Source: Acidobacteriota bacterium (GTDB taxonomy: Bacteria > Acidobacteriota > Vicinamibacteria > Vicinamibacterales > UBA2999). From it: DNA of 64,000 bases. Under the pieces are notes generated by a model. That model ran no database searches, was not told where the DNA came from, and saw nothing but the letters and a program-made list of their open reading frames with translations. The stretch is from assembly GCA_030697165.1 (NCBI GenBank), contig JAUYQQ010000008.1:5001-69000 (forward strand). The letters run 5' to 3'. This document shows, piece by piece, positions 5,694-63,787 of this stretch. Position numbers and translations under genes: made by a program. How positions within the stretch are numbered: the stretch's first letter is position 1; each line of letters starts with the position of its first letter.

Positions 5694-6719
5694 CTACACG
5701 TACTCGACGCCGGGTTCACCCACGATGATGTCGCCAATGACCAGGCTGTTGGCTTCGCCGGCGTTGAGCAGTTCCTGGCGAACGGCGTCCACGTCGTTCT
5801 TCCCGACGACCAGGATCATGCCGATGCCCATGTTCAGCGCGCGGCGGAGGTCGTACTCCGGGACCCGGCCGGATTCTCCCAGCCAGCGGAAAATGGCCGG
5901 CACCCGCCACGAGGTGCGGTCGACGCGCGCGGCGGTTCCCGCCGGCAACACCCGCGGCAGGTTGTCGGTAATGCCGCCGCCGGTGATGTGCGCCATGCCC
6001 TTGATGACGCCCTTGCCCAGCAGTGGCTTGATCGCCGGCAGGTACGACCGGTGGGGACGCAGCAGCGCCTGGCCGACCGTCTCGCCAAGGTCGGGCACGT
6101 GCGTGTCGACATCCAGTTTCAGCTCCTCGAACGCGATCTTGCGGGCGAGCGAATAGCCGTTGGTGTGCAGGCCGCTCGACGGCAATCCGAGCAGCACGTC
6201 GCCGGCGGCGATGGTCTTGCCGTCGATCAGGCGGGCGCGATCCACGGCGCCGACAATGAACCCGGCGACGTCGTATTCGCCGTCGTTGTAGAAGCCCGGC
6301 ATCTCGGCGGTTTCGCCGCCGAGCAGCGCGCAGCCGTTATCCTTGCAGGCGCGCGCCAGGCCCTGCACGATCTGCTCAGCCACATCGGGCGAGAGCTTGC
6401 CGGTGGCGAGATAGTCGAGAAAGAACAGCGGCACGGCGCCCTGCACCAGGATGTCGTTGACGCAGTGGTTCACCAGGTCCACACCAATGGTGGTGTGCTG
6501 GTTGGCCATGAAGGCGACCTTGAGCTTGGTGCCAACGCCGTCGGCGCTCGACACCAGCACCGGCTCCTTCCAGGCCGCCGGATCGAGCTTGAACAGACCG
6601 CCGAACGAGCCGATCTCCGACAGCACGCCGGGCGTAAAGGTCGATTGCGCCAGCTTCTTGATGCGGCGAACGGTCTCGTGGCCCGCGTCGATATCTACGC
6701 CAGAACTCTTGTAATCCAT
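5694..6719 (-). CDS. purM: phosphoribosylformylglycinamidine cyclo-ligase
   Basis: AIR synthetase, the ATP-dependent ring closure of FGAM, 341 residues, normal length. It starts MDYKSSGVDIDAGHE as typical, with KVAFMANQHTTIGVDLVNHCVNDI, GALPLFFLDYL-type (here GAVPLFFLDYLATGKL), GGETAEMPGFY and HITGGGITDNLPRVLP motifs. It lies in the minus-strand purine block, 41 bases after the HEAT-repeat gene. The C-terminal end (ANSLVIGDIIVGEPGVEYV) is complete. Confidence 0.97.
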   Translation of the reverse strand: MDYKSSGVDIDAGHETVRRIKKLAQSTFTPGVLSEIGSFGGLFKLDPAAWKEPVLVSSADGVGTKLKVAFMANQHTTIGVDLVNHCVNDILVQGAVPLFFLDYLATGKLSPDVAEQIVQGLARACKDNGCALLGGETAEMPGFYNDGEYDVAGFIVGAVDRARLIDGKTIAAGDVLLGLPSSGLHTNGYSLARKIAFEELKLDVDTHVPDLGETVGQALLRPHRSYLPAIKPLLGKGVIKGMAHITGGGITDNLPRVLPAGTAARVDRTSWRVPAIFRWLGESGRVPEYDLRRALNMGIGMILVVGKNDVDAVRQELLNAGEANSLVIGDIIVGEPGVEYV

Positions 6720-6759
6720 GGGCTTGGGGCTTGGGGCTTGGGACTTGGGGGCCGGGACC

Positions 6760-7968
6760 CTAGAAGTCCAACTTGGTGATCAGCAGCTCGCACAGCTTGC
6801 GCATCTCCGAGCCATCGGGGGCCGACCAGTAGGCGCGGCGAACCGCGACGAAGAAGCGCTCTTCCTCGAGGTCCTCCTCGAGCATGTCGAACGCCTCGGC
6901 GAGAATGCCGATGGCGCCGGCCTGGTCGGGATGCGACCCGATCGCCTTCAGCATCAGCGGCGTGTTGCGCAGCGCCACCAGGCCGAGCGCCAGCGTGACC
7001 GGGGCGCGCACCGGATCCTGCGACGGAATGCCGACACGAAACAGGATGTTCAACGCCTCTTCATTGCCCTGCCTGGCCACGTTGCCCAGGCCCGCGGCGG
7101 CGCCACGCAACAGCTCCTGATACCCCGGATAAGTGTCGGCAAAAGTCAGGGTCTTCTCGAGATAGCCGACGTGCGCCGAGCAGTTGGTGCCCATCAGGCA
7201 GATCGCGGCGGCAATGGCCGGCTGCGCTTCCTTCGGCGCCGTTCGCTGCAGTTCCGCCAGAGTGCCGAGCGCCGCGTTGTCGCCAATCTTCCCCAGCGCC
7301 GTCGCCGCATCGTCCTGTAACGGCCCGTCGATCTTGGCGATCTCGATGAGCTTAGGCACACCGGCGGCAATCTTGTAGTCGCCGAGCGCCTCGATTACGG
7401 TGCTGCGGAAGAAGTCGACGCCGCGACCGGCGTCGCGGATCAAGGCGTCGGTGACCTTGGGTTCCTTGTGGATGGCCGCCAGCGCCCGAATCAGCGCCGG
7501 ACGCACGAACTCGCCCTGCTCCTTGTCGAGCGCCGCCAGCATGCCTGGCGCGAGCGACGCTGAGGGGAACTGCTCGAAGTACGCAAACGCCACCTCGCGC
7601 AGGCGGTCGTTGGGCGAGACCATGGCCTCGCGCATGGTGTCGACCGTCCGCGGGTCATTGAATCCGGTCAGCAGGATCAGCGCCTTGTAGCGGATGTAGC
7701 CGTCGGCGTGCCCGCTGATGGCCTCGAGCAGGGCCGGCACCACTTGCGCGGTAGGCGCACGGCGAAGGGTCCGGCCCGCGCCCATGCGTGTCGGGTAATC
7801 GAGGTCGCCGAGCTTGCCAATGGCCACGCGGATCTCTTCGGGCGACGCGGGTGTCGGACCGCGCTCCTGCGCGAGCGCAGTCGTGCCCGCCAGCAGCAAC
7901 GCCAGCGTGACAAGGCCAAGACGCTCAGCCAACGGGTTCCTCTTCCGGAAGGGGCTGACGCGGGCCAT
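6760..7968 (-). CDS. exported HEAT-repeat protein inside the purine block
   Basis: About 402 residues. An N-terminal basic stretch and hydrophobic core (RLGLVTLALLLAGTTALAQ) form a Sec signal peptide. The rest is alpha-helical with repeated units such as VVPALLEAISGHADGYIRYKAL, VPKLIEIAKIDGPLQDDAATALGKIGD and EALNILFRVG, typical of HEAT/PBS-lyase-like repeats. The start is uncertain: the ATG at 7968 overlaps purF by 44 bases, and a TTG at 7932 overlaps by 8 bases and would trim the basic N-region. The repeats suggest a protein scaffold in the periplasm. No link to purine synthesis is visible. Confidence 0.8.
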   Translation of the reverse strand: MARVSPFRKRNPLAERLGLVTLALLLAGTTALAQERGPTPASPEEIRVAIGKLGDLDYPTRMGAGRTLRRAPTAQVVPALLEAISGHADGYIRYKALILLTGFNDPRTVDTMREAMVSPNDRLREVAFAYFEQFPSASLAPGMLAALDKEQGEFVRPALIRALAAIHKEPKVTDALIRDAGRGVDFFRSTVIEALGDYKIAAGVPKLIEIAKIDGPLQDDAATALGKIGDNAALGTLAELQRTAPKEAQPAIAAAICLMGTNCSAHVGYLEKTLTFADTYPGYQELLRGAAAGLGNVARQGNEEALNILFRVGIPSQDPVRAPVTLALGLVALRNTPLMLKAIGSHPDQAGAIGILAEAFDMLEEDLEEERFFVAVRRAYWSAPDGSEMRKLCELLITKLDF

Positions 7969-9367
7969 CGATCTTGAGCGACAACTGCAGGTAGCCACTA
8001 TGGTCGCGCGGGAAGGCGACCGGATACTGGCCGGTATAGCACGACGTGCAGTACGACGGCCCCTGCCCCTTGACCGACGACAACAGGCCGTCGAGGCTGA
8101 GGTAGCCGATGGTGTCGGCGGCGACGTACTTGCGAATCTCCTCGAGCGTGTGGGTGGCGCCGATCAGCTCCTGCCGCCGCGGCGTATCGACGCCGTAGAA
8201 ACACGGCGAGACCGTCGGTGGGCAACTGATGCGCAGGTGCACTTCCTTCGCGCCCGACGCGCGCACCATCTTCACGATCTTCCGGCTGGTGGTGCCGCGC
8301 ACCAGCGAATCGTCGACCAGCACCACGCGCTTGCCGGCGAGAATGCTCTTCACCGGGTTCAACTTCACCTTGACGCCGAAGTGACGGATCGACTGCGCCG
8401 GCTCGATGAACGTCCGGCCGACGTAGTGATTGCGGATCAAGCCCATCCGCAGGGGAATCTTCGATTCCTCGGAATAGCCAATCGCCGCGCAGACGCCCGA
8501 GTCGGGAATGGGCACGACCACATCCGCCTCGACGCCGGTCTCTCGCGCCAGCACCCGGCCCAGCTCGGTGCGCACTTCGTTGACGCTCTGGCCGAACACC
8601 TCGCTGTCGGGGCGGGCGAAATAAACGTGCTCGAAAATGCAGTGCGACAACTGCGCCTTCGGGAACGGCTTGACCGATCGCAGCCCGTGCGGCCCGATGA
8701 TCAGCACTTCGCCGGGCTCGACGTCACGTACGTAGGTGGCGCCAATCAGGTCGAGCGCGCAAGTCTCTGAACTGACCACCCAGGAGTTATCGAGCTTGCC
8801 CAGGGCCAGCGGCCTGAAGCCGTGCGGATCGCGCACGGCTATCATGGAGTCCTTGGTGATCAGCGCGAACGAGAAGGCGCCGGTCAATTGCGTAACCGAC
8901 TCAACCAGCGCGTCTTCGACCGAGCCGGCCTGCGACCGCGCGTACAAATGCAGCACCACTTCGGTGTCGCTGTTGGTCTGGAAGATCGAGCCGGCGCGGA
9001 CCAGCCGGTCGCGCACTTCGTTGGCATTGACGATGTTGCCGTTGTGGCAGATGCCGACCTGGCCGTGGACGCAGTCGATCAGGATGGGTTGTGCGTTCGA
9101 CAGCTTGCTTTCACCGGCGGTCGAATAGCGAGTGTGGCCGATCGCGATCGGTCCGCTCAGCGTCGCCAGCGTCGCCTCGTTGAAGATGTCGTTGACGTAG
9201 CCCATCTGGCGGACGAGCCGCACGCGCTCGCCGTCGGCCGAGGCAATGCCGGCGCTTTCCTGTCCGCGATGCTGCAGCGCGTAGAGGCCCAGGTAGGCCA
9301 GCTTCGACGCTTCCGGGTGGCCGTAAATGCCGAAGACCCCGCACTCGTCGCGGAACTTATCGAACAT
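7925..9367 (-). CDS. purF: amidophosphoribosyltransferase
   Basis: Commits PRPP to purine synthesis using glutamine. The protein has 480 residues from the ATG at 9367; a GTG two codons earlier is possible. The short propeptide MFDKFRDE precedes Cys9 ([12 protein letters not shown]), the N-terminal nucleophile after processing. The glutaminase part has [11 protein letters not shown] and ICHNGNIVN. The PRPP site is [30 protein letters not shown] segment and a C-terminal [13 protein letters not shown] carry the Cys residues typical of the Fe-S type of the B. subtilis class. It overlaps the purL stop by 11 bases. Confidence 0.97.
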
Positions 9368-11630
9368 TGCCACTCATCCTTCGCTCGATCGACGTTGCCC
9401 AGGCCTGCTCGGCAGCGACGATGGCCGAGTCAACCGCCGCCGTGCCCCCCACGCTCAAACGAATGCGATCGCCGCCGGTCTTGCCGATCACGGTGGCCGT
9501 GACGCCTGCGTCCTTCGCGGCGGCGAGGACCGCGTCGAGGCGCTCTGTCGAAGCCGATACGACGATCCGCGATGCTGATTCGCCGAACAGTGTGGCGTTG
9601 ACAGTGTAGGTCCGGCTAAAGCCGGACGCCACATCAGCTGTAGTGTCCGGCTTTAGCCGGACCTCGGCGACATCAGCGGTCACCCCAATGCCGCCGCTGT
9701 TGAACGTGCACTCGGCCAACGTGACGGCGAGGCCGCCTTCCGAACAGTCGTGCGCCGAATCTACCAACCCACCGCGAATCAGCGTGACAATCAGCTTCTG
9801 CAGCGCGGCTTCCCGCGCCAGGTCCAGCGCGGGCGGCATACCGGCCACCGTGCCGTGCATGGTGGCAAGGTATTCGCTGCCGCCCAACTCGCCCAGATTA
9901 TCGCCCAGCAACACCACCGCCGCGCCCGCTCGTTTGAACGCGCGCGTCGTCGTCTTCGCGGCGTCTTCGAGCAGGCCGACCACGCCCAGCACTGGGGTCG
10001 GGTAGATGGCCCGGCCTTCAGTCTCGTTGTAAAGGCTGACGTTGCCGCCGGTGATGGGAATGCCCAGCGCCCGGCACGCTTCGCCAATGCCGCGCACGGC
10101 CTCGCCCAGCTGCCACATGATCTCGGGCCGCTCGGGATTGCCGAAGTTGAGGTTGTTGGTGCCGCCGATCGGCTCGCCGCCGGCGCACGCGACGTTGCGC
10201 CCGGCCTCGGCCACGGCCAGCATGGCGCCACGGTGCGGATCGAGATAACAGAACCGGCCGTTGCCGTCGACCGACACGGCCAGGCCGGTGGTGGTGCCCT
10301 TCACGCGCACCACGGCCGCCGACATGCCGGGCTGGGCGATCGTGTTGGTACCGACGCTGTGGTCGTACTGCCCGTAGGCCCAGCGCTTGCTGGCAATGGT
10401 CGGCACCGTGAGCAGCCGATCGAACGCCGCCTGGGCGGCCGGCGGCGGACCAAGGGCGTCGAGCGACAGCTTCCGCACGTCCTTCTGCCACGACGGTTCC
10501 TGCATGGGCCGGCGATACACCGGTGCTTCATCGGTCAACGCACGGTTCGGCACGTCAGCCACCAGCACACCGCGCTCGTGGACCTTCAGGCGCGAGCCCT
10601 CGACCACCTCGCCGACCTGCACCGCGTGCAGGTCCCACTTCTCGAACACCGCCGTCACTTCGTGCTCGCGGCCCTTCTCGACCACCAGCAACATGCGCTC
10701 CTGCGACTCCGACAGCATGATCTCGTAGGGGGTCATGCCGGTCTCGCGTTGCGGCACATGCATCACATCGATGGTCATGCCGACGCCGCCGCGCGAACCC
10801 ATCTCCGAGGTCGCGCACGACAGGCCGGCCGCGCCCATGTCCTGGAGGCCCAGCACCGCGCCGGTCTTCATCACCTCGATGCAGGCCTCCATCAGGAGCT
10901 TCTCCATGAAGGGATCGCCGACCTGCACGGCCGGACGCTTCTCGGCCGACTTCTCGTCGAACTCGGCCGACGCCATGGTCGCGCCGTGGATGCCGTCGCG
11001 GCCGGTCTTGGCACCAACGTAGAACACCGGGTTGCCGGCGCCCTTGGCGGCGCCTTTGACGATGCCGTCGATGCGCGAGATGCCGAGGCACAGCACGTTC
11101 ACGAGCGGGTTGCCGGAGTACATGTCGTCGAAAACGATCTCGCCGCCCACGGTCGGGATGCCGATGCTGTTGCCGTAGCCGCCGACGCCGGCGACGACCC
11201 CCTCGAAAATGCGGCGGGCCAGCGGCTGGTCGAGCGAGCCGAAACGCAGCGCGTTCAGGAGCGCGATCGGCCGCGCGCCCATGGTGAAGATGTCGCGGAT
11301 GATGCCGCCGACACCGGTCGCAGCGCCCTGGTACGGCTCGATGAACGAGGGATGGTTGTGCGACTCAATCTTGAAGACCGCGCATAAGCCACCACCGATG
11401 TCGACCGCGCCGGCGTTCTCGCCGGGCCCCTGCACGACGCGCGGGCCGGTGGTCGGCAGCGTCTTCAGGTGCACGCGCGAGCTCTTGTAGCTGCAGTGCT
11501 CGGACCACATCACCGAGAACAGGCCCAGCTCCAGCAGGTTGGGCTCGCGGCCCATCAGCTCGAGAATGCGCTCGTACTCGTCCGGCTTGATGCCGTGTCG
11601 TTCCAGAACTGCCGCGTCAATGACTGCCAC
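9357..11630 (-). CDS. purL: phosphoribosylformylglycinamidine synthase, large subunit
   Basis: FGAM synthase catalytic subunit of the three-part PurLQS type, 757 residues from a GTG at 11630. Recognisable blocks are [77 protein letters not shown] and [12 protein letters not shown]. Near the C-terminus an insertion of about 18 residues ([20 protein letters not shown]) lies between TADVAE and [10 protein letters not shown] and is encoded entirely by a palindromic repeat (9608-9663). The normal FGES.SR motif follows directly, so the insertion sits in a loop and the gene is otherwise intact. Confidence 0.97.
9608..9663. repeat. inverted pair of the GTCCGGCTAAAGCCGGAC palindrome, in frame in purL
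   Basis: GTCCGGCTAAAGCCGGAC and its reverse complement flank a 17-20 base spacer containing GCCACATCAGCTG. The spacer plus arms keep the purL frame open. A single copy occurs in purD at 20448-20470 and a decayed copy in a glycosyltransferase tail at 26186-26207. Confidence 0.85.
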
Positions 11631-11638
11631 CGGTGCCG

Positions 11639-12340
11639 TTACCTCGAGAGGGATGCGAGAGCTTTCACTGCCGATGCCAGGATCACGCGGCCGTCCGCGC
11701 TCCCCAGCTGGGCTTCCGTCGCGCGCTCGGGGTGCGGCATCAGCCCCACCACGTTGCGTTGCCGGTTACAGATGCCGGCGATGTTGTTGAGCGAGCCGTT
11801 GATGTTGCTGGCGGGCGTGACCTCGCCGGCGGCATCCGCGTAGCGGAACACGACCTGGCGGTGGGCCTCGAGCGCGGCCAGCGTCTCGGGATCGGCGTAG
11901 TAGTTGCCCTCGCCGTGCGCCACCGGCATGTGCAGCACTTGCCGGGCGGCGCAGGCCGCCGTGAACGGCGTATCGGTTTGCTCAACGCGCACCGGCACCA
12001 GTCGCGACACGAACTTGATGCGGTCGTTCCTGACCATGGCGCCCGGCAGCATGCCCGCCTCGAGCAGCACCTGGAAGCCATTGCAGATGCCCAGCACCGG
12101 CCCGCCGCGGTCGGCAAACGCCTTGACCGCCGACATGATCGGCGAGAAACGGGCAATGGCGCCGGTGCGAAGGTAGTCGCCGTGCGCGAAGCCGCCAGGC
12201 AGGATCACCACGTCGGCGCCCTGCAGGTCGGTGTCCTTGTGCCACACCAGCGCCGCGTCCTCGCCAATCACCGCCGAGGCCGCGTAGAACGCGTCGTAAT
12301 CCGAGTTCGACCCGGGGAAGACGACCACTGAGAATTTCAT
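11639..12340 (-). CDS. purQ: phosphoribosylformylglycinamidine synthase, glutaminase subunit
   Basis: Class I glutamine amidotransferase feeding ammonia to PurL, 233 residues. The nucleophile is in [15 protein letters not shown] and the catalytic His/Glu in [25 protein letters not shown] and [10 protein letters not shown] are typical. The gene ends 8 bases before the purL GTG and begins 37 bases after purS. The short purS-purQ gap is filled by a degenerate GGGAGTC-type repeat. Confidence 0.97.
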
Positions 12341-12345
12341 CGGTT

Positions 12346-12378
12346 CGACTCCCGACTCCCGGTTCCCGACTCCCGCCT
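12346..12378. repeat. GGGAGTC/CGACTCCC heptad repeat, purS-purQ gap
   Basis: Three to four units of CGACTCCC and one CGGTTCCC variant fill the whole gap between the purQ start and the purS stop. They belong to the same family as 13952-13983, 19574-19605 and 27567-27638. On one strand the G3 runs are spaced by four bases. Confidence 0.8.
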
Positions 12379-12620
12379 CATTCGAAGACCTCGACGCGGT
12401 AGCTCTCGATCACCGGGTTGGCGAGCAGCTTGTCGGCCATCTCGGTCACCCGCGCCTTCGCCTTCGTCGCATCCGGCTCAGTGAGCTCGACCTCGAAGAA
12501 CTTGCCCTGCCGCACATCCTGCACGTCCTGGTAGCCGAGCGTGACGAGCGCATCCGCGACGACGCGGCCCTGGGGATCGAACACGGACGGCTTCAAGGTC
12601 ACATACACACGGGCACGCAT
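12378..12620 (-). CDS. purS: phosphoribosylformylglycinamidine synthase, small subunit
   Basis: 80-residue PurS, the bridging subunit of the PurLQS complex. MRARVYVTLKPSVFDPQGRVVADAL and YQDVQDVRQGKFFEVEL are classical. The ATG at 12620 is preceded by GGAGGAG eight bases upstream, which fixes this start against the longer frame. Confidence 0.96.
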   Translation of the reverse strand: MRARVYVTLKPSVFDPQGRVVADALVTLGYQDVQDVRQGKFFEVELTEPDATKAKARVTEMADKLLANPVIESYRVEVFE

Positions 12621-57107: not shown

Positions 57108-57652
57108 CGCCACCAGCGGCGGTACGCGCGATACTCTGCTCCGCGCCGTTCGGCCAGCAGCCGGTCCTGCCGGCGCGCCGCGATCACGTGCAGCACGATC
57201 ATGATGAGCGCGGTCACGCCAAGTGTCGGGCTGTGCGTCGCGATCGGCGCTGCCGCCCAGGCCAGGGAGTACGCCAGGTAGACCGGGTGACGAAACAGCC
57301 GGTAGACGCCGTTCGTGAGCAGCGGCGTGGCCGCCTCGCTGGCTGCGAAGGCACGGGGCAGCATGACGTCGCCGGTGGCTTCCACGGCCGCCAGAAACAG
57401 GGCCACCGCGAGCACGTACAACGCAATGCCGGTCACGGTCCAGGAATCGCCGGGGCTGTCGCGGGTGATGATGCCGACGCAGTGAAGCACCGCGACCGCA
57501 ATGGCTGATTCCTGGAACAGAATCGCCTGCCGTTCAGCGGGCGTGGGCGTGATAAAGAACTTCTGCAGGCCGATTCCCATGACGACGAAGGCCGCCAGGC
57601 CCGAGGCGAGCAGCACCCATTCCAGGAGGTTGGCCGGACCCTCGAACCCCAC
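57104..57652 (-). CDS. ICMT/PEMT-like membrane methyltransferase family protein
   Basis: 182 residues from a GTG at 57652, with four or five hydrophobic segments. The C-terminal block GVYRLFRHPVYLAYSLAWAAAP ... ARRQDRLLAERRGAEYRAYRRWWR carries the RHPxYL and E-x-x-Y-x-x-Y patterns of isoprenylcysteine-carboxyl-methyltransferase-like proteins. Bacterial members methylate unknown small or lipid acceptors. Upstream of the GTG the frame continues, but without conserved features. Confidence 0.8.
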   Translation of the reverse strand: MGFEGPANLLEWVLLASGLAAFVVMGIGLQKFFITPTPAERQAILFQESAIAVAVLHCVGIITRDSPGDSWTVTGIALYVLAVALFLAAVEATGDVMLPRAFAASEAATPLLTNGVYRLFRHPVYLAYSLAWAAAPIATHSPTLGVTALIMIVLHVIAARRQDRLLAERRGAEYRAYRRWWR

Positions 57653-57708
57653 GGCGGGATTATAGGGCAGCGACGTTGCCTTCGGCCTTCCACCCCCGGT
57701 CTTGGTTG

Positions 57709-58761
57709 CTAGCGCTCCCCGGGTGGCCGGCGATCGAGCGGCTTCATTTCGACCGTGAAGCTGAAGGGTACCCGCGCGGGGTTGTAGCACAACTTGTCGT
57801 CACACGCCTGGTAGTCGAGCGCACCCGTGATGGTCACCGATGGCATGGCGGCCAGTTGCTTTTGGGCGGCCGGCGTCGCCAGCAGCGTCAGGTCGCGGCG
57901 CAGGCGGAACGGCTTCATGAAGACTTCAACCCGCTCGTCGAGCGGCTTGAAGTGATAGATCTCGGACGCCGGATAGACCGTGTCGTGGGTTCGCAACCAC
58001 GGTTGGGGATCGATCGTGACCTGCACCACGCGGTAGGTGTGTTTCCCTGGCGCGTACAAATGCATGCCAGGCTTTGGCGAGGCGTCCACCACGAGCGACA
58101 GGCGCTCGCCCGGCGCCGCGGTGGTGTCACTGATGGTCGCCGTCAGCGTGAGGTGCGCGGTGTCGGCGGTCACCGTGCCGCCGCCGATCCCAGCCCCGAG
58201 CGACGACAGGATGGTCGCTGTCGTGTACCGCTCCTGGTAGGCGTCCTCGAAGAACCGCGACACGACCACGCCCTTGCGATCGACGATGAACGTGCCCGGG
58301 TGCGGAATGCCAAAAGTCGTCGACTTCGGATCGACGCCCTGATTGAGCAGGCCGTACTGCTTGATGATGGCCGAGCCCGGGTCGGCGATGATCGGAAACG
58401 TGATGCTGCGCGACGCCGAGAAGCGCCGGTGGGTTTCGGCGCTGTCGTAGCTGATCGCAATGAGGCCCAGCCCCTGCCGGGTGATGTCAGCGTGGCGGCT
58501 TTGCAGCTCCACGAGCTGCGTCTTGCAGTACGGTCACCAGTCGGCGGAGCGGAAGAACACCAGCATGGCGCCCTTCGGCCCCATGACCGACGCGAGGGTG
58601 TGGGGTTTGCCGAACTGGTCGGTGCCCGAGAAAGCCGGGACGACGGCGCCGATCTGGGGACCGACCTTGGAAGTATCGACTGCCGGCGGCGCCTGGCCGG
58701 CCAGGCCCGCAACCGCCACCACGGCGGTCAACACGGTGAGCGCGAATCGGGGTTTCATCAT
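57709..58761 (-). CDS. exported redoxin with in-frame UGA at the UxxC site, probable selenoprotein
   Basis: Thioredoxin-fold peroxiredoxin/thiol oxidoreductase of 350 residues if the TGA at 58534-58536 is read as Sec76. Signal peptide MMKPRFALTVLTAVVAVAGLAG, then an AhpC/TSA-like domain: GAVVPAFSGTDQFGKPHTL, MLVFFRSADW-U-PYCKTQLVELQSRH, ISYDSAETHRRF, FPIIADPGS, HPGTFIVDRKGVVVSRFFEDAY. The UGA replaces the first Cys of the expected W-C-P-Y-C motif, both halves are in one frame, and a SECIS-like hairpin follows. The C-terminal ~150 residues resemble the DsbD N-terminal domain, with a Cys pair at ~320 and ~325 (DYQACDDKLCYNP). The alternative is a pseudogene by nonsense mutation; the intact flanks argue against that. 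Gene callers will split it at 58512/58534. Confidence 0.8.
58503..58519 (-). promoter_or_regulatory. bacterial SECIS-like hairpin after the in-frame UGA
   Basis: On the minus strand GCAGCTC-GTG-GAGCTGC makes a perfect 7-bp stem with a 3-base loop that begins with G. It starts 14 bases after the UGA, and the loop is 21 bases after it. Published bacterial SECIS rules ask for a small apical loop with G in the first two positions, within about 16-37 bases of the UGA. It also encodes QLVEL, so codon choice alone could create it. Confidence 0.65.
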
Positions 58762-58801
58762 CGGTAAGACGCCTCGGGCAGCCTGAAGATACATGAAGTG
58801 T

Positions 58802-60325
58802 TTAGCGACCAAGCAACCAAGTTTCCGGGTACTGCGCGTACCAGCCGAACCAGAACGCGCGCTGGGCGACGAAACGCGGCAACGCGATCGACCCATCCGT
58901 CAGCGTGAGCGCGTCTTCGCCCTGCCGCCAGGTTCGGCCGGCGGTGTCGACGAGGTCGCCGGTAACGGGTCGCGACTGGAACACCACGTCGTGGCCGCCC
59001 ACGGCATAGACCCGGTTGGCGCCCTTCGGCGTGGTCACCACCAGCAACCGGCGGCCAGCCACTTCGAAGGGAAACACCGGGGTGCGCTTGAGGAAGTCGG
59101 CCACGATCGCCACCGGCTGCGCCTCGCCGCCAGCCGCCGGCCTGACCTGCATCACCAGCACTTCGTCCTTATTCTTCAGGCGGCGGTCCTTGTTCGAGAC
59201 CTCGAAATACAGCCGGTCATTCGAAAAGTAGTCGCGGTAGGCCGCGCCCTCGCCGTAGTCCCGCTTGTGACCGGTGTCGAGCGACAGCACGGTCGTCTTC
59301 GGATGCGTCTCGCGCCACTCGCCCCAGGTCGTGGTCACCGCGGCGTGCGAGGTCATCTGTAGCCCGCTGTCGACCAGCGAACCGACGACCGGCTTGCCCT
59401 CGAGGGTGGACCACAGGCTCATGGACTCCTCGTCGAACATCAGCTTGTTCGATCGATAGAGCAGGCCACTCGTACCAAAACCGCGGCGTTTGCCGCCGAC
59501 CACGCTGTCGTACGGAATCACGGTACCGCACAAGGTGCAGTAGACGATGGTGATCTCGGCGCCGCCGAGCTTGTCGACGGCCATCTCGTGCCAGGCCAGG
59601 ATGCGCTTCGGGTAGGCGCGGGCCTCGCCGTTCACGACCACCCCAAACACGATATTGCCGTCGCGCAGGTAGCGTGCCTCCTCGCCTGACATGACCTTGG
59701 GGTAATAGAGCGGGGGAATGCCGTTGACGGTCACCCCGCCCCAATCGATCTCGTCGAGCCGAATCAAACTCTTCGCACCGGGCGGAAAGAATCGCTGCAT
59801 GCGCGGGTCAACGCCGCCGCCGTAGACCATGCCCTTGAACTGCGCGTACTCGGGATGCGGCTCGTACGGCAGGCTCCACATCCACGCCCGCCAGCCGTTC
59901 AGGGACAAGTCGAATCGCTTTCGGGTTTGCTTCTCGAGAAACGAGATCAATCGCGAGCGGATCATCGACTCACGCGTCACGCCAGTTCCGCCCGCCGCCG
60001 CCAGTTCCGCACCGAGCAAACGCGAGCCGGGATCGTCGCCGTCGTCAGGACCATCAGTGGGCTGCGCGCCGATGTCGGCGCCACCGGATGGCGCGGTGGG
60101 ACGGGGCGCCGGCCGCAGCAGCCGGGCCATGTCAATGATCATCGGGGTGTACGAGTCGCGCCACTGCTTGGACAGCGCGTCGAGGGCCGCGCGTGCGACG
60201 CGATCGTCCGGTGAGGTCGCGGCAAAGAACAGTTCGAGCGGCGGCGGGCCCGGCACCTGGGCCCGCATGTTGCCCTGGCTGAACAGGAGCAGTGTCGCGG
60301 TGATCACCAGGCTCGCGCGCATCAT
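58802..60325 (-). CDS. DUF3179 domain exported protein
   Basis: 507 residues; MMRASLVITATLLLFSQGNMRAQ is a signal peptide. The DUF3179 core is clear: VVVNGEARAYPKRILAWHEMAVDKLGGAEITIVYCTLCGTVIPYDS, GTSGLLYRSNKLMFDEESMSLWSTLEGKPVVG and GEGAAYRDYFSN. The CTLCGT motif offers a Cys pair for metal or disulfide. The function of the family is unknown. It overlaps the anti-sigma gene (ATGA) and precedes the redoxin by 40 bases, so all belong to one operon. The N-terminal ~130 residues are specific to this protein. Confidence 0.9.
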   Translation of the reverse strand: MMRASLVITATLLLFSQGNMRAQVPGPPPLELFFAATSPDDRVARAALDALSKQWRDSYTPMIIDMARLLRPAPRPTAPSGGADIGAQPTDGPDDGDDPGSRLLGAELAAAGGTGVTRESMIRSRLISFLEKQTRKRFDLSLNGWRAWMWSLPYEPHPEYAQFKGMVYGGGVDPRMQRFFPPGAKSLIRLDEIDWGGVTVNGIPPLYYPKVMSGEEARYLRDGNIVFGVVVNGEARAYPKRILAWHEMAVDKLGGAEITIVYCTLCGTVIPYDSVVGGKRRGFGTSGLLYRSNKLMFDEESMSLWSTLEGKPVVGSLVDSGLQMTSHAAVTTTWGEWRETHPKTTVLSLDTGHKRDYGEGAAYRDYFSNDRLYFEVSNKDRRLKNKDEVLVMQVRPAAGGEAQPVAIVADFLKRTPVFPFEVAGRRLLVVTTPKGANRVYAVGGHDVVFQSRPVTGDLVDTAGRTWRQGEDALTLTDGSIALPRFVAQRAFWFGWYAQYPETWLLGR

Positions 60326-60987
60326 CGCCGGACCTCGGTTCGCCCGGCGAACGCCGTGAACATGGCCCGACCAAACACGGCCGCCGACAGGACTACGGCC
60401 ATCACCGGGCCTGCGTGCCAGAGCAGGAGATGCATGGGGCCGTCCAGGGGACAGGTAAGTTCAACGCCGAGCGCGCCGACGGCGGCCGCCGCCAACGCCG
60501 CGAACGTGACCGTGGCGCGCACGTCGCCAGGCGCGCTCCGTCCCACCATGATCGCCAGCAGCAGGCCCGGCGTGGCACCGATCGCGAACGCCTTCGCGAC
60601 GCAGCCCCAGCCGGCCTCTGGCCAGGCGGCGCCGCCGGCCGCCGCCAACGGCATCAGCTCTCCGGCGAGCCAGGCCAGCCATGCGCCCAGGGCGATCGCG
60701 GGCGCGGCGCGGCGCCACCTGTCAACGGGTTCGCCTGGAATCGCCAACGCCAACGCCGCGGCGGCCGAGCTGACGGCCGCGAGTACCAGCAACGCCACGT
60801 GGGCCTGAAAGGGTTGCGCAAACACGCTCGTGGCCAGGTCGCCGCGGCGTCCGAGGACCGCGACGGAGGCGGCACCCACCGCCACCGAGGCCATCAGCCA
60901 CCGCCGTAGCCGGACGGAGGGCAGCGGGAGCGGTGACACCGGCTCGAGATCCCGAACCAGGGCGTCGATCACGTCGTTAGTTGCCAT
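60322..60987 (-). CDS. NrsF-like (DUF1109) membrane anti-sigma factor
   Basis: 221 residues with six hydrophobic segments, and a short cytoplasmic N-terminus MATNDVIDALVRDLEPVSPLPLPSVRLRRWL typical of the DUF1109/NrsF family. Conserved-type Cys residues lie in WGCVAKAFAIGATPG and LGVELTCPLDGPMHLLLWHAGPV. In Caulobacter NrsF holds SigF and releases it under metal or oxidative stress through a Cys pair. It starts 11 bases inside the 3' end of the sigma gene, the usual coupling. Confidence 0.88.
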   Translation of the reverse strand: MATNDVIDALVRDLEPVSPLPLPSVRLRRWLMASVAVGAASVAVLGRRGDLATSVFAQPFQAHVALLVLAAVSSAAAALALAIPGEPVDRWRRAAPAIALGAWLAWLAGELMPLAAAGGAAWPEAGWGCVAKAFAIGATPGLLLAIMVGRSAPGDVRATVTFAALAAAAVGALGVELTCPLDGPMHLLLWHAGPVMAVVLSAAVFGRAMFTAFAGRTEVRR

Positions 60988-61534
60988 AGCCGATTCCCGC
61001 CAGAAACTTTCTCAGCGCCGCGTAGCCGCGGTGGGCAATCACTTTGATGTTGGCTTCACTCATCCCGGTCTCCCGCGCGACATCGCTCACGGACATCTCC
61101 ATCAACTTCAGGCGTTCGATCACCACGCGTTGGGCCGGCGACAACTGTCGCATCGCTTGCGCCAGGTCGACTCGAGCAATGGTTTCACCCTCTGGCGTGT
61201 GTGACCACACCACCGGCGGCACCGCGTCCATGGGTTCCTCCCACGCGGCCGTACGCTTGTGCCGGCGAATCGCGTCGATCATGCGACTCTGCAGCACCGC
61301 GTAGAACCAGGGCGCGAAGGGCCGCTCGGGGTTCCAGGTCTGCCGCGCCCGGTGCAACGACACCAGCACATCCTGGACGACATCGTCGACCCACGGCGTT
61401 TGCCCGACCCGACGGCACACGTAGAGCCTGACGACGTGACCGAGCCCCCGTAACAGGGCGTCGTACGCCGATCGGTCGCCGCGCTGGCTCGCCGTCATGA
61501 GCAACGTCAGCTCATGTTCCTGCTCTGGGGTCAT
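60977..61534 (-). CDS. ECF RNA polymerase sigma factor (SigF/ECF16-like)
   Basis: 185 residues. Region 2: VDDVVQDVLVSLHRARQTWNPERPFAPWFYAVLQSRMIDAIRRHKR, close to the SigF/ECF16 pattern. Region 4: AMRQLSPAQRVVIERLKLMEMSVSDVARETGMSEANIKVIAHRGYAALRKFL. The paired NrsF-like gene supports the assignment. It is expected to drive its own operon, including the DUF3179 and redoxin genes. No clear autoregulatory promoter was identified by eye upstream of 61534. Confidence 0.93.
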   Translation of the reverse strand: MTPEQEHELTLLMTASQRGDRSAYDALLRGLGHVVRLYVCRRVGQTPWVDDVVQDVLVSLHRARQTWNPERPFAPWFYAVLQSRMIDAIRRHKRTAAWEEPMDAVPPVVWSHTPEGETIARVDLAQAMRQLSPAQRVVIERLKLMEMSVSDVARETGMSEANIKVIAHRGYAALRKFLAGIGYGN

Positions 61535-61704
61535 CCCCTTATTGGACTTCTACGAAGCACTCCGCGATTCGGTTACAGATGCCGGCGGTCTCAGGGGCGG
61601 GGCCGAGCGAGGTCGACTCGACGGGGGTCAGGCGGGGTTTCGGCTTCGAGAGTGGCGCGGTAGCGCGCCCGTGCGTCCTGCTCCAAGGACACTGGATCCA
61701 TCCC

Positions 61705-61803
61705 TCAACAGGCGGTTGGCTTCTGCATGTAGCCTTCCCAGAACTGGGCCACGCCTGTAACAAACTGGGACAGCGCCGTCTTGAGGGTTCGAGTGGTCGA
61801 CAT
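61705..61803 (-). CDS. possible 32-residue small protein downstream of acs
   Basis: An ATG at 61803 opens MSTTRTLKTALSQFVTGVAQ, continues with a Trp/Phe-rich amphipathic stretch (FWEGYMQKP) and stops at 61705. It lies 20 bases after the acs stop on the same strand. No strong ribosome-binding site is seen. The amphipathic helix gives it some plausibility; otherwise the 288 bases between acs and the sigma gene hold nothing I can name. Confidence 0.35.
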   Translation of the reverse strand: MSTTRTLKTALSQFVTGVAQFWEGYMQKPTAC

Positions 61804-61822
61804 AGCTTCGATGGTAGTCGCT

Positions 61823-63787
<1,965 letters not shown>

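Follow-up and report, generated by a model that had tools for sequence, protein, structure and literature searches.

A UxxC redoxin fused to a DsbD_N-like domain is a probable selenoprotein of the Acidobacteriota

We conclude that a gene on the minus strand of a 64,000-nucleotide stretch of Acidobacteriota DNA (the window, by which we mean the whole of the stretch analysed) very probably encodes a selenoprotein of the thiol-redox class, in which an in-frame UGA at codon 76 would be read as selenocysteine (Sec). We put the probability of this reading, which covers neither the electron relay nor the stress role proposed below, at roughly 0.93, on evidence that is comparative rather than chemical. 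The gene occupies positions 57709..58761, and its predicted product has a signal-peptide-like N-terminus (judged by eye), a peroxiredoxin-like (Prx-like) domain and a DsbD_N-like domain. A first-pass annotation had proposed a selenoprotein here, and that proposal is now strongly supported: the sel genes are present in the genome, homologues carry either UGA or Cys at residue 76, and a hairpin following the UGA is conserved only in the UGA forms.

Reading frame, homologues and residue 76

Read from 58761 to 57709 on the minus strand, the gene comprises 350 codons and ends in TAG, and its frame is broken once, by the TGA at 58536-58534 (codon 76), in the context F-R-S-A-D-W-[UGA]-P-Y-C-K. This confirms the single interruption of an otherwise continuous frame that the first-pass annotation had described. 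Its two fragments were likewise recovered: a standard ORF listing (table 11) yields one frame of 120 aa (58896-58534) and another of 267 aa that begins at an in-frame GTG (58512-57709). It is because the table 11 reading splits the gene in two that it is easily overlooked. With the UGA taken as a residue, two Pfam matches fall in the same frame, both above their cut-offs: PF00578 (AhpC-TSA, residues 37-167; 103.7 bits, cut-off 26) spans the UGA, and PF11412 (DsbD_N, residues 215-329; 29.1-32 bits, cut-off 25) lies beyond it. PF08534 (Redoxin; 62.2 bits, cut-off 26.6) also matches the first domain and runs to residue 177, the Prx-like domain thus occupying 58231..58653; the DsbD_N-like domain, with its Cys pair 320/325 (YQACDDKLC), occupies 57712..58185. 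Among curated NCBIfam models, none matched the protein above cut-off, the SelL-related redox protein model NF040769 giving 43 bits against a cut-off of 120. Judging from its N-terminus, where the signal peptide was assessed by eye, and from the DsbD_N domain, the product is probably exported.

When 396 genomes of the phylum were searched for homologues, 377 gave a match, in many cases a weak one. We read 70 loci, the best-scoring among the matches listed and with the window's own gene (L020) included; they are a sample, not a census. Raw counts at residue 76 were U 58, C 10 and gap 2, and at the second Cys 68 with 2 gaps. Removal of three duplicates (L078=L049, L080=L044, L081=L046) left 67 distinct loci, of which 56 have UGA at residue 76 (58534..58536, the first residue of U-P-Y-C) and nine have Cys; the other two (L079, L082) lack the redoxin domain. 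The alignment at this position, called for in the first-pass annotation, therefore gives UGA or Cys and nothing else wherever the domain is present, and Cys79 (58525..58527), the second residue of the UxxC pair, is retained as that annotation had noted, in 65/65 distinct loci with the domain. Because 56 of 67 distinct loci (the window included) share the UGA at this position, it is neither chance nor a sequencing error. Residues invariant in 37 aligned fusions include R71, S72, W75, C79, D106, D127, R178, Q318, C320 and C325.

The redoxin-DsbD_N enzyme is present in many families of the phylum. Eight loci have no aligned DsbD_N Cys pair, namely L083 (Cys), L084-L089 (UGA) and L043, whose match ends at query residue 301. 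The six loci L084-L089 are redoxins of the RG-x-W-UGA type from other genomes of the phylum, and the number of pairs in the hairpin described below (maximum 7) is 6 or 7 in L084, L085, L087 and L088, five in L089 and three in L086. A divergent subfamily (L068-L077) reads RSAVWUPYC or RSAVWUPPC and has both the UGA and the DsbD_N Cys pair. One genome, G116, carries a UGA copy and a Cys copy of the fusion (L051 and L028), a natural pair for comparison.

As controls, we scanned named bacterial genomes with a Cys-codon pattern, which finds Cys forms only. Of the 124 relatives that were found 80 were kept, comprising 27 with fusion-length frames (L111-L137) and 53 with a match to the redoxin domain only (Alphaproteobacteria, Opitutaceae and others). 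The titles of 26 of the 27 fusions name Acidobacteria, Terriglobia, Vicinamibacteria, Acidobacteriaceae or Sulfopaludibacter. The remaining one (L130, CALQBJ020000168.1) is titled as a Bifidobacterium breve MAG, but the gene is a Cys fusion of the Acidobacteriota type, and the bin is probably mislabelled or contaminated. A plasmid search gave weak redoxin matches only, with 0/91 records covering 80% of the query.

On a tree of 82 fusion rows with residue 76 masked, in which some genes appear twice (from two sources), UGA and Cys interchange 11 times, and no fewer than 7 of these exchanges are forced by the starred branches; the tree was built by a quick method and has some long branches. It is also unrooted, so that gain and loss of Sec are not distinguishable on it.

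Fold, redox sites and a proposed electron route

AlphaFold models the full-length protein with a mean pLDDT of 93.5 and a pTM of 0.87. In this model, helix 77-88 begins after residue 76, placing the UxxC motif at the N-terminus of the active-site helix. The DsbD_N-like domain, folded alone, reaches a pLDDT of 95.4, and Foldseek with this domain alone returns Neisseria meningitidis nDsbD (6dps) as its best match (E 1e-4, TM 0.61 by target) and as the sole match at E 0.001 or below. A sequence profile of the C-terminal domain, run against the PDB, gave 0 matches. The earlier description of the domain as DsbD-N-like is upheld by both Pfam PF11412 and the fold. Like the N-terminal (alpha) domain of DsbD, it also has a YQAC....C Cys pair, both Cys of which (320/325) are present in 37/37 aligned fusions. 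Unlike DsbD, the fusion gene has DsbD_N only, with neither a transmembrane nor a C-terminal thioredoxin domain, and it has a redoxin instead.

A full DsbD is found elsewhere in the genome, in the form of a single DsbD_TM match within a protein that has DsbD_N, TM and thioredoxin domains; BLAST of the fusion's C-terminal domain against it aligns only 12 residues, round the Cys pair. It is because the genome holds this protein that we propose a route from DsbD to the fusion. The exported protein, with its N-terminus and DsbD_N domain pointing to export, would act as a thiol:disulfide oxidoreductase in which, by the chemistry of the family, Sec76 would attack and Cys79 resolve, forming a selenenyl-sulfide at each turnover. 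Electrons would then pass from DsbD to Cys320/Cys325, from there to Sec76-Cys79 and finally to substrate, a route whose parts are identified and whose transfers we infer. That the cell's DsbD reduces the Cys320/Cys325 domain, which in turn reduces Sec76-Cys79, is in our judgement slightly favoured, and the periplasmic relay that the first-pass annotation had envisaged is plausible in a genome with a full DsbD. With this fusion one can ask directly whether a single polypeptide can couple a Sec enzyme to the DsbD pathway.

There are two other ways in which the protein might work. The first is that the DsbD_N-like domain serves in binding or docking and is not an electron donor, Sec76 being reduced by some other periplasmic thioredoxin; we give this a substantial, if minority, chance. 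A DsbD_N-like domain also occurs alone in the same genome, 56% identical to the fusion's C-terminal domain (locus L082, G000:C19:118000-119700), and therefore can act apart from the redoxin, but the invariance of both Cys in all 37 aligned fusions is what a redox function would predict. A further stand-alone DsbD_N-like protein is found at L079.

The second is that the selenoprotein is a peroxidase, with hydroperoxides reduced at Sec76 or Cys79 and the active site restored by the DsbD_N domain, for which the cell-envelope peroxiredoxin/ScsB pathway provides a parallel. We regard this as rather unlikely. The best solved folds listed for the first domain are indeed peroxiredoxins, the closest being Mycobacterium tuberculosis AhpE (Z 20.4, rmsd 2.0, 149 residues aligned), and the PF00578 match scores 103.7 bits. 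However, peroxiredoxins in the strict sense have T/S-x-x-C(U) together with a catalytic Arg, while the thioredoxin arrangement is CxxC plus a cis-Pro, and in the alignment with AhpE it is Cys79 that falls on the AhpE Cys, while Sec76 is found on the side of the Thr. Pro155 takes the place of the Arg that is altered in AhpE R116A, and this position is Pro in 36/37 fusions and Ala in 1/37. The strict peroxiredoxin signature is thus absent, and although this is an argument from alignment, the signature is of the thioredoxin type. What we find instead, PF00578 together with a UxxC at the helix start, is characteristic of the Prx-like thiol:disulfide oxidoreductases (UxxC), and because of the thioredoxin-type arrangement of UxxC and Pro155 we favour thiol:disulfide exchange over peroxidase activity.

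The hairpin downstream of the UGA and the selenocysteine machinery

Downstream of the UGA lies a SECIS-like hairpin (58503..58519, minus strand; GCAGCUC-GUG-GAGCUGC), with a stem of 7 bp, a 3-nt GUG loop, 21 nt from UGA to loop and an energy of -11.6 kcal/mol. The bSECIS model, as given in the legend to Fig 2 of PMC13188914, has a loop of 3-9 nt with G in its first two positions, a stem of 4-16 bp, a distance of 16-37 nt from the UGA and an energy of at most -7.5 kcal/mol, and the hairpin agrees with every item stated there (for the G, in the first loop position). If the selenoprotein reading is correct, the hairpin, close behind the UGA, would recruit SelB carrying Sec-tRNA(Sec), and selenocysteine would be inserted by the ribosome at residue 76.

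Since the peptide QLVELQ alone favours such a hairpin, we chose synonymous-codon shuffles as the control. In the 37 distinct UGA fusions a mean of 6.59 of the 7 pairs can form; the shuffles give 5.06 (sd 0.165), and 0/300 of them were as high. The Cys forms show nothing comparable: 4.44 pairs against 4.42 shuffled in the nine distinct Cys loci of the phylum set (L083 among them); 4.65 against 4.50 (68/300 as high) in the 26 distinct Cys fusions from named genomes, seven of which are identical in sequence to members of the phylum set of nine; and 3.71 against 3.74 (203/300 as high) in 52 distinct Cys redoxins without a matched C-terminal domain. All 37 UGA fusions have GU at the loop positions +25/+26, as do 6/26 Cys fusions. 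Across the 37 UGA fusions 94.2% of cells are paired, the covariation score exceeds that of all 500 shuffles, and double changes are seen in 3 of the 7 hairpin pairs, a number that 16/500 shuffles reach; in the nine Cys loci 63.5% of cells are paired, with no excess. Thus the hairpin is conserved beyond the demands of the peptide in the UGA fusions only, and not in the Cys fusions.

It is important to note that kinship inflates the UGA signal somewhat, although the Cys sets, whose members are also related among themselves, show nothing. The signal is also a property of the family, given that codon shuffling of single UGA fusions gives p <= 0.05 in only 8% of them. Single-sequence folding of the UGA region did not stand out from dinucleotide shuffles (z 0.25 and -0.19), and an Rfam search of 241 bases matched no SECIS model. 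The combination of at least seven UGA/Cys exchanges with a hairpin constrained only in the UGA forms makes this family well suited to the question of why Sec is gained and lost.

A search of the genome for selA, selB, selC and selD had been suggested in the first-pass annotation, and all four are present and over cut-off in the source assembly (5.39 Mb, 23 contigs, rated 100% complete): tRNA-Sec (selC) at 61.9 bits, called SeC(tca) by ARAGORN, selB at 309.3 bits (643 aa), selA at 532.7 bits and selD at 354.7 bits. The selD gene (locus L017) itself contains an in-frame UGA, within C-A-G-U-A-S-K, at the position usual for Sec in SelD, and is a second probable selenoprotein gene of the genome.

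Translation of the UGA as Trp or Cys, through suppression or a different genetic code, is very improbable. Nothing specific speaks for it beyond the Cys homologues, which indicate that Cys would be tolerated, whereas the genome has complete Sec machinery with a Sec-type selD. Furthermore, UGA is an ordinary stop here: 3 of the 12 window genes checked end in TGA, the NrsF gene among them. The window holds 13 coding-like stretches bridged by a TGA, and the 12 besides the present gene resemble shadow frames when judged by eye. That the UGA is a true stop, with the two table 11 frames as separate products or the remains of a decayed gene, has a negligible probability given the same-site UGA in most homologues, with Cys in nine and flanks conserved on both sides, and a hairpin constrained only in the UGA forms.

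We also asked how the fusion is distributed with respect to the machinery, seeking selA in 60 chosen genomes and tRNA-Sec (E 1e-9) in 37 of these. The 60 include 30 of the 40 genomes in which a UGA fusion was read, the window's own genome apart (G089, G108, G117, G126, G184, G214, G222, G270, G310 and G392 were left out); G116, with copies of both kinds, was counted as UGA. In these 30, selA is over cut-off in 25 and tRNA-Sec is found in 27; selA falls below cut-off in five and tRNA-Sec fails to pass E 1e-9 in three, but no genome lacks both, so that one or both are found in 30/30. Among seven genomes in which only a Cys fusion was read, both are found in two (G379, G394) and neither in five. 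The comparison of 30/30 with 2/7 for selA and/or tRNA-Sec gives a Fisher value of 4.8e-5, uncorrected for relatedness. The Sec machinery is not, however, tied to the redoxin fusion, since selA is over cut-off in 15 of the 23 other genomes searched as well.

Known selenoproteins, operon and sel clusters

Prx-like selenoproteins with UxxC are known, and were already present in the Sargasso Sea survey (PMC1088965). A 2026 table has two UxxC entries, Prx-like (PF00578) and 'Redoxin family protein' (PF08534) (PMC13188914 table 1). A count made in 2006 gave Acidobacteria four selenoproteins in three families (PMC1794560), and one Acidobacteriota genome is listed with three known selenoprotein genes (PMC12013277). 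The present gene resembles the Prx-like selenoproteins, as described in the relevant parts of PMC1088965, PMC1794560 and PMC13188914, in its PF00578 domain, its Cys homologues, the SECIS after the UGA and the UxxC that replaces the TxxU of Sec peroxiredoxins; it differs in the fused DsbD_N-like domain, a fusion absent from those descriptions. It is likewise similar to the 'Redoxin family protein', a UxxC redoxin of PF08534, whose cut-off is passed here, although the comparison is with a table entry (PMC13188914), in which a fusion is unmentioned. Also similar in plan is Unknown_3 (PMC2398784), which joins a UxxC Prx-like domain to a Cys-containing domain but is probably distinct, since its description gives three conserved Cys with a CxxC, against one C-x4-C pair in a DsbD_N domain here. 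Excerpts of the literature on such fusions and on Acidobacteria selenoproteins (PMC9312934 and PMC5029168 included), supplements apart, hold no mention of a DsbD_N fusion, which thus appears to be unreported.

The redoxin gene is the last of a probable four-gene operon, all on the minus strand, that starts with an ECF sigma factor (60977..61534; PF04542, PF08281, TIGR02937), followed by an NrsF-family anti-sigma factor (60322..60987; PF06532, 80.8 bits, cut-off 26.8) and a DUF3179 protein (58802..60325). The sigma and NrsF genes overlap by 11 bases, the NrsF and DUF3179 genes by 4, and a gap of 40 bases separates DUF3179 from the redoxin. Table 1 of PMC13188914 counts DUF3179 among the selenoprotein families; the protein here is of the Cys type (CTLC). 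NrsF of Caulobacter holds sigmaF in check, and the release of sigmaF is affected by chromium and by two conserved Cys of NrsF (PMC3511200). The window's NrsF has two Cys in its sequence, and by analogy with Caulobacter sigmaF the operon position suggests that the redoxin might be induced by envelope redox or metal stress. A sigma-70 promoter scan of 57500-61900, which is blind to ECF promoters, gave 0 sites.

Comparing 20 gene contexts, we found conserved synteny in the DUF3179-nrsF-sigma order and in sel clusters only. The former is seen in the window and in a relative of the same genus (G107), and in none of the other 18 contexts, which include another relative of the genus (G301) and the locus at which DsbD_N stands alone in the window's own genome. 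Sel clusters adjoin the redoxin gene in two genomes, both of the window's family. In G028 the redoxin gene (C15:58745-59809) comes first, then selC (59856-59946, on the opposite strand), selA, selB and selD; in G183 (L091) selA lies directly upstream of it on the same strand, and selB and selC are found farther along, no more than 7.5 kb away. The redoxin and the sel cluster may move as a unit. We tentatively consider, as a possibility that we think doubtful as a whole, that the protein is an envelope selenoenzyme with a built-in reductant, the electron-accepting domain of DsbD, and driven in this species by the redox- or metal-sensing sigma operon, which would be a principal client of the Acidobacteriota Sec machinery and be transferred as a block in some lineages. 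If this were true, Acidobacteriota would keep the whole Sec machinery for this client, and some lineages would pass on redoxin-selC-selA-selB-selD together. A 592-aa neighbour in G333, which BLAST clustered with SelB, looks by eye like a GTPase of the sulfate adenylyltransferase type and not like SelB. The compact Sec cluster of G028 corresponds to about 6700-12430 of locus L090 (G028:C15:52000-70000).
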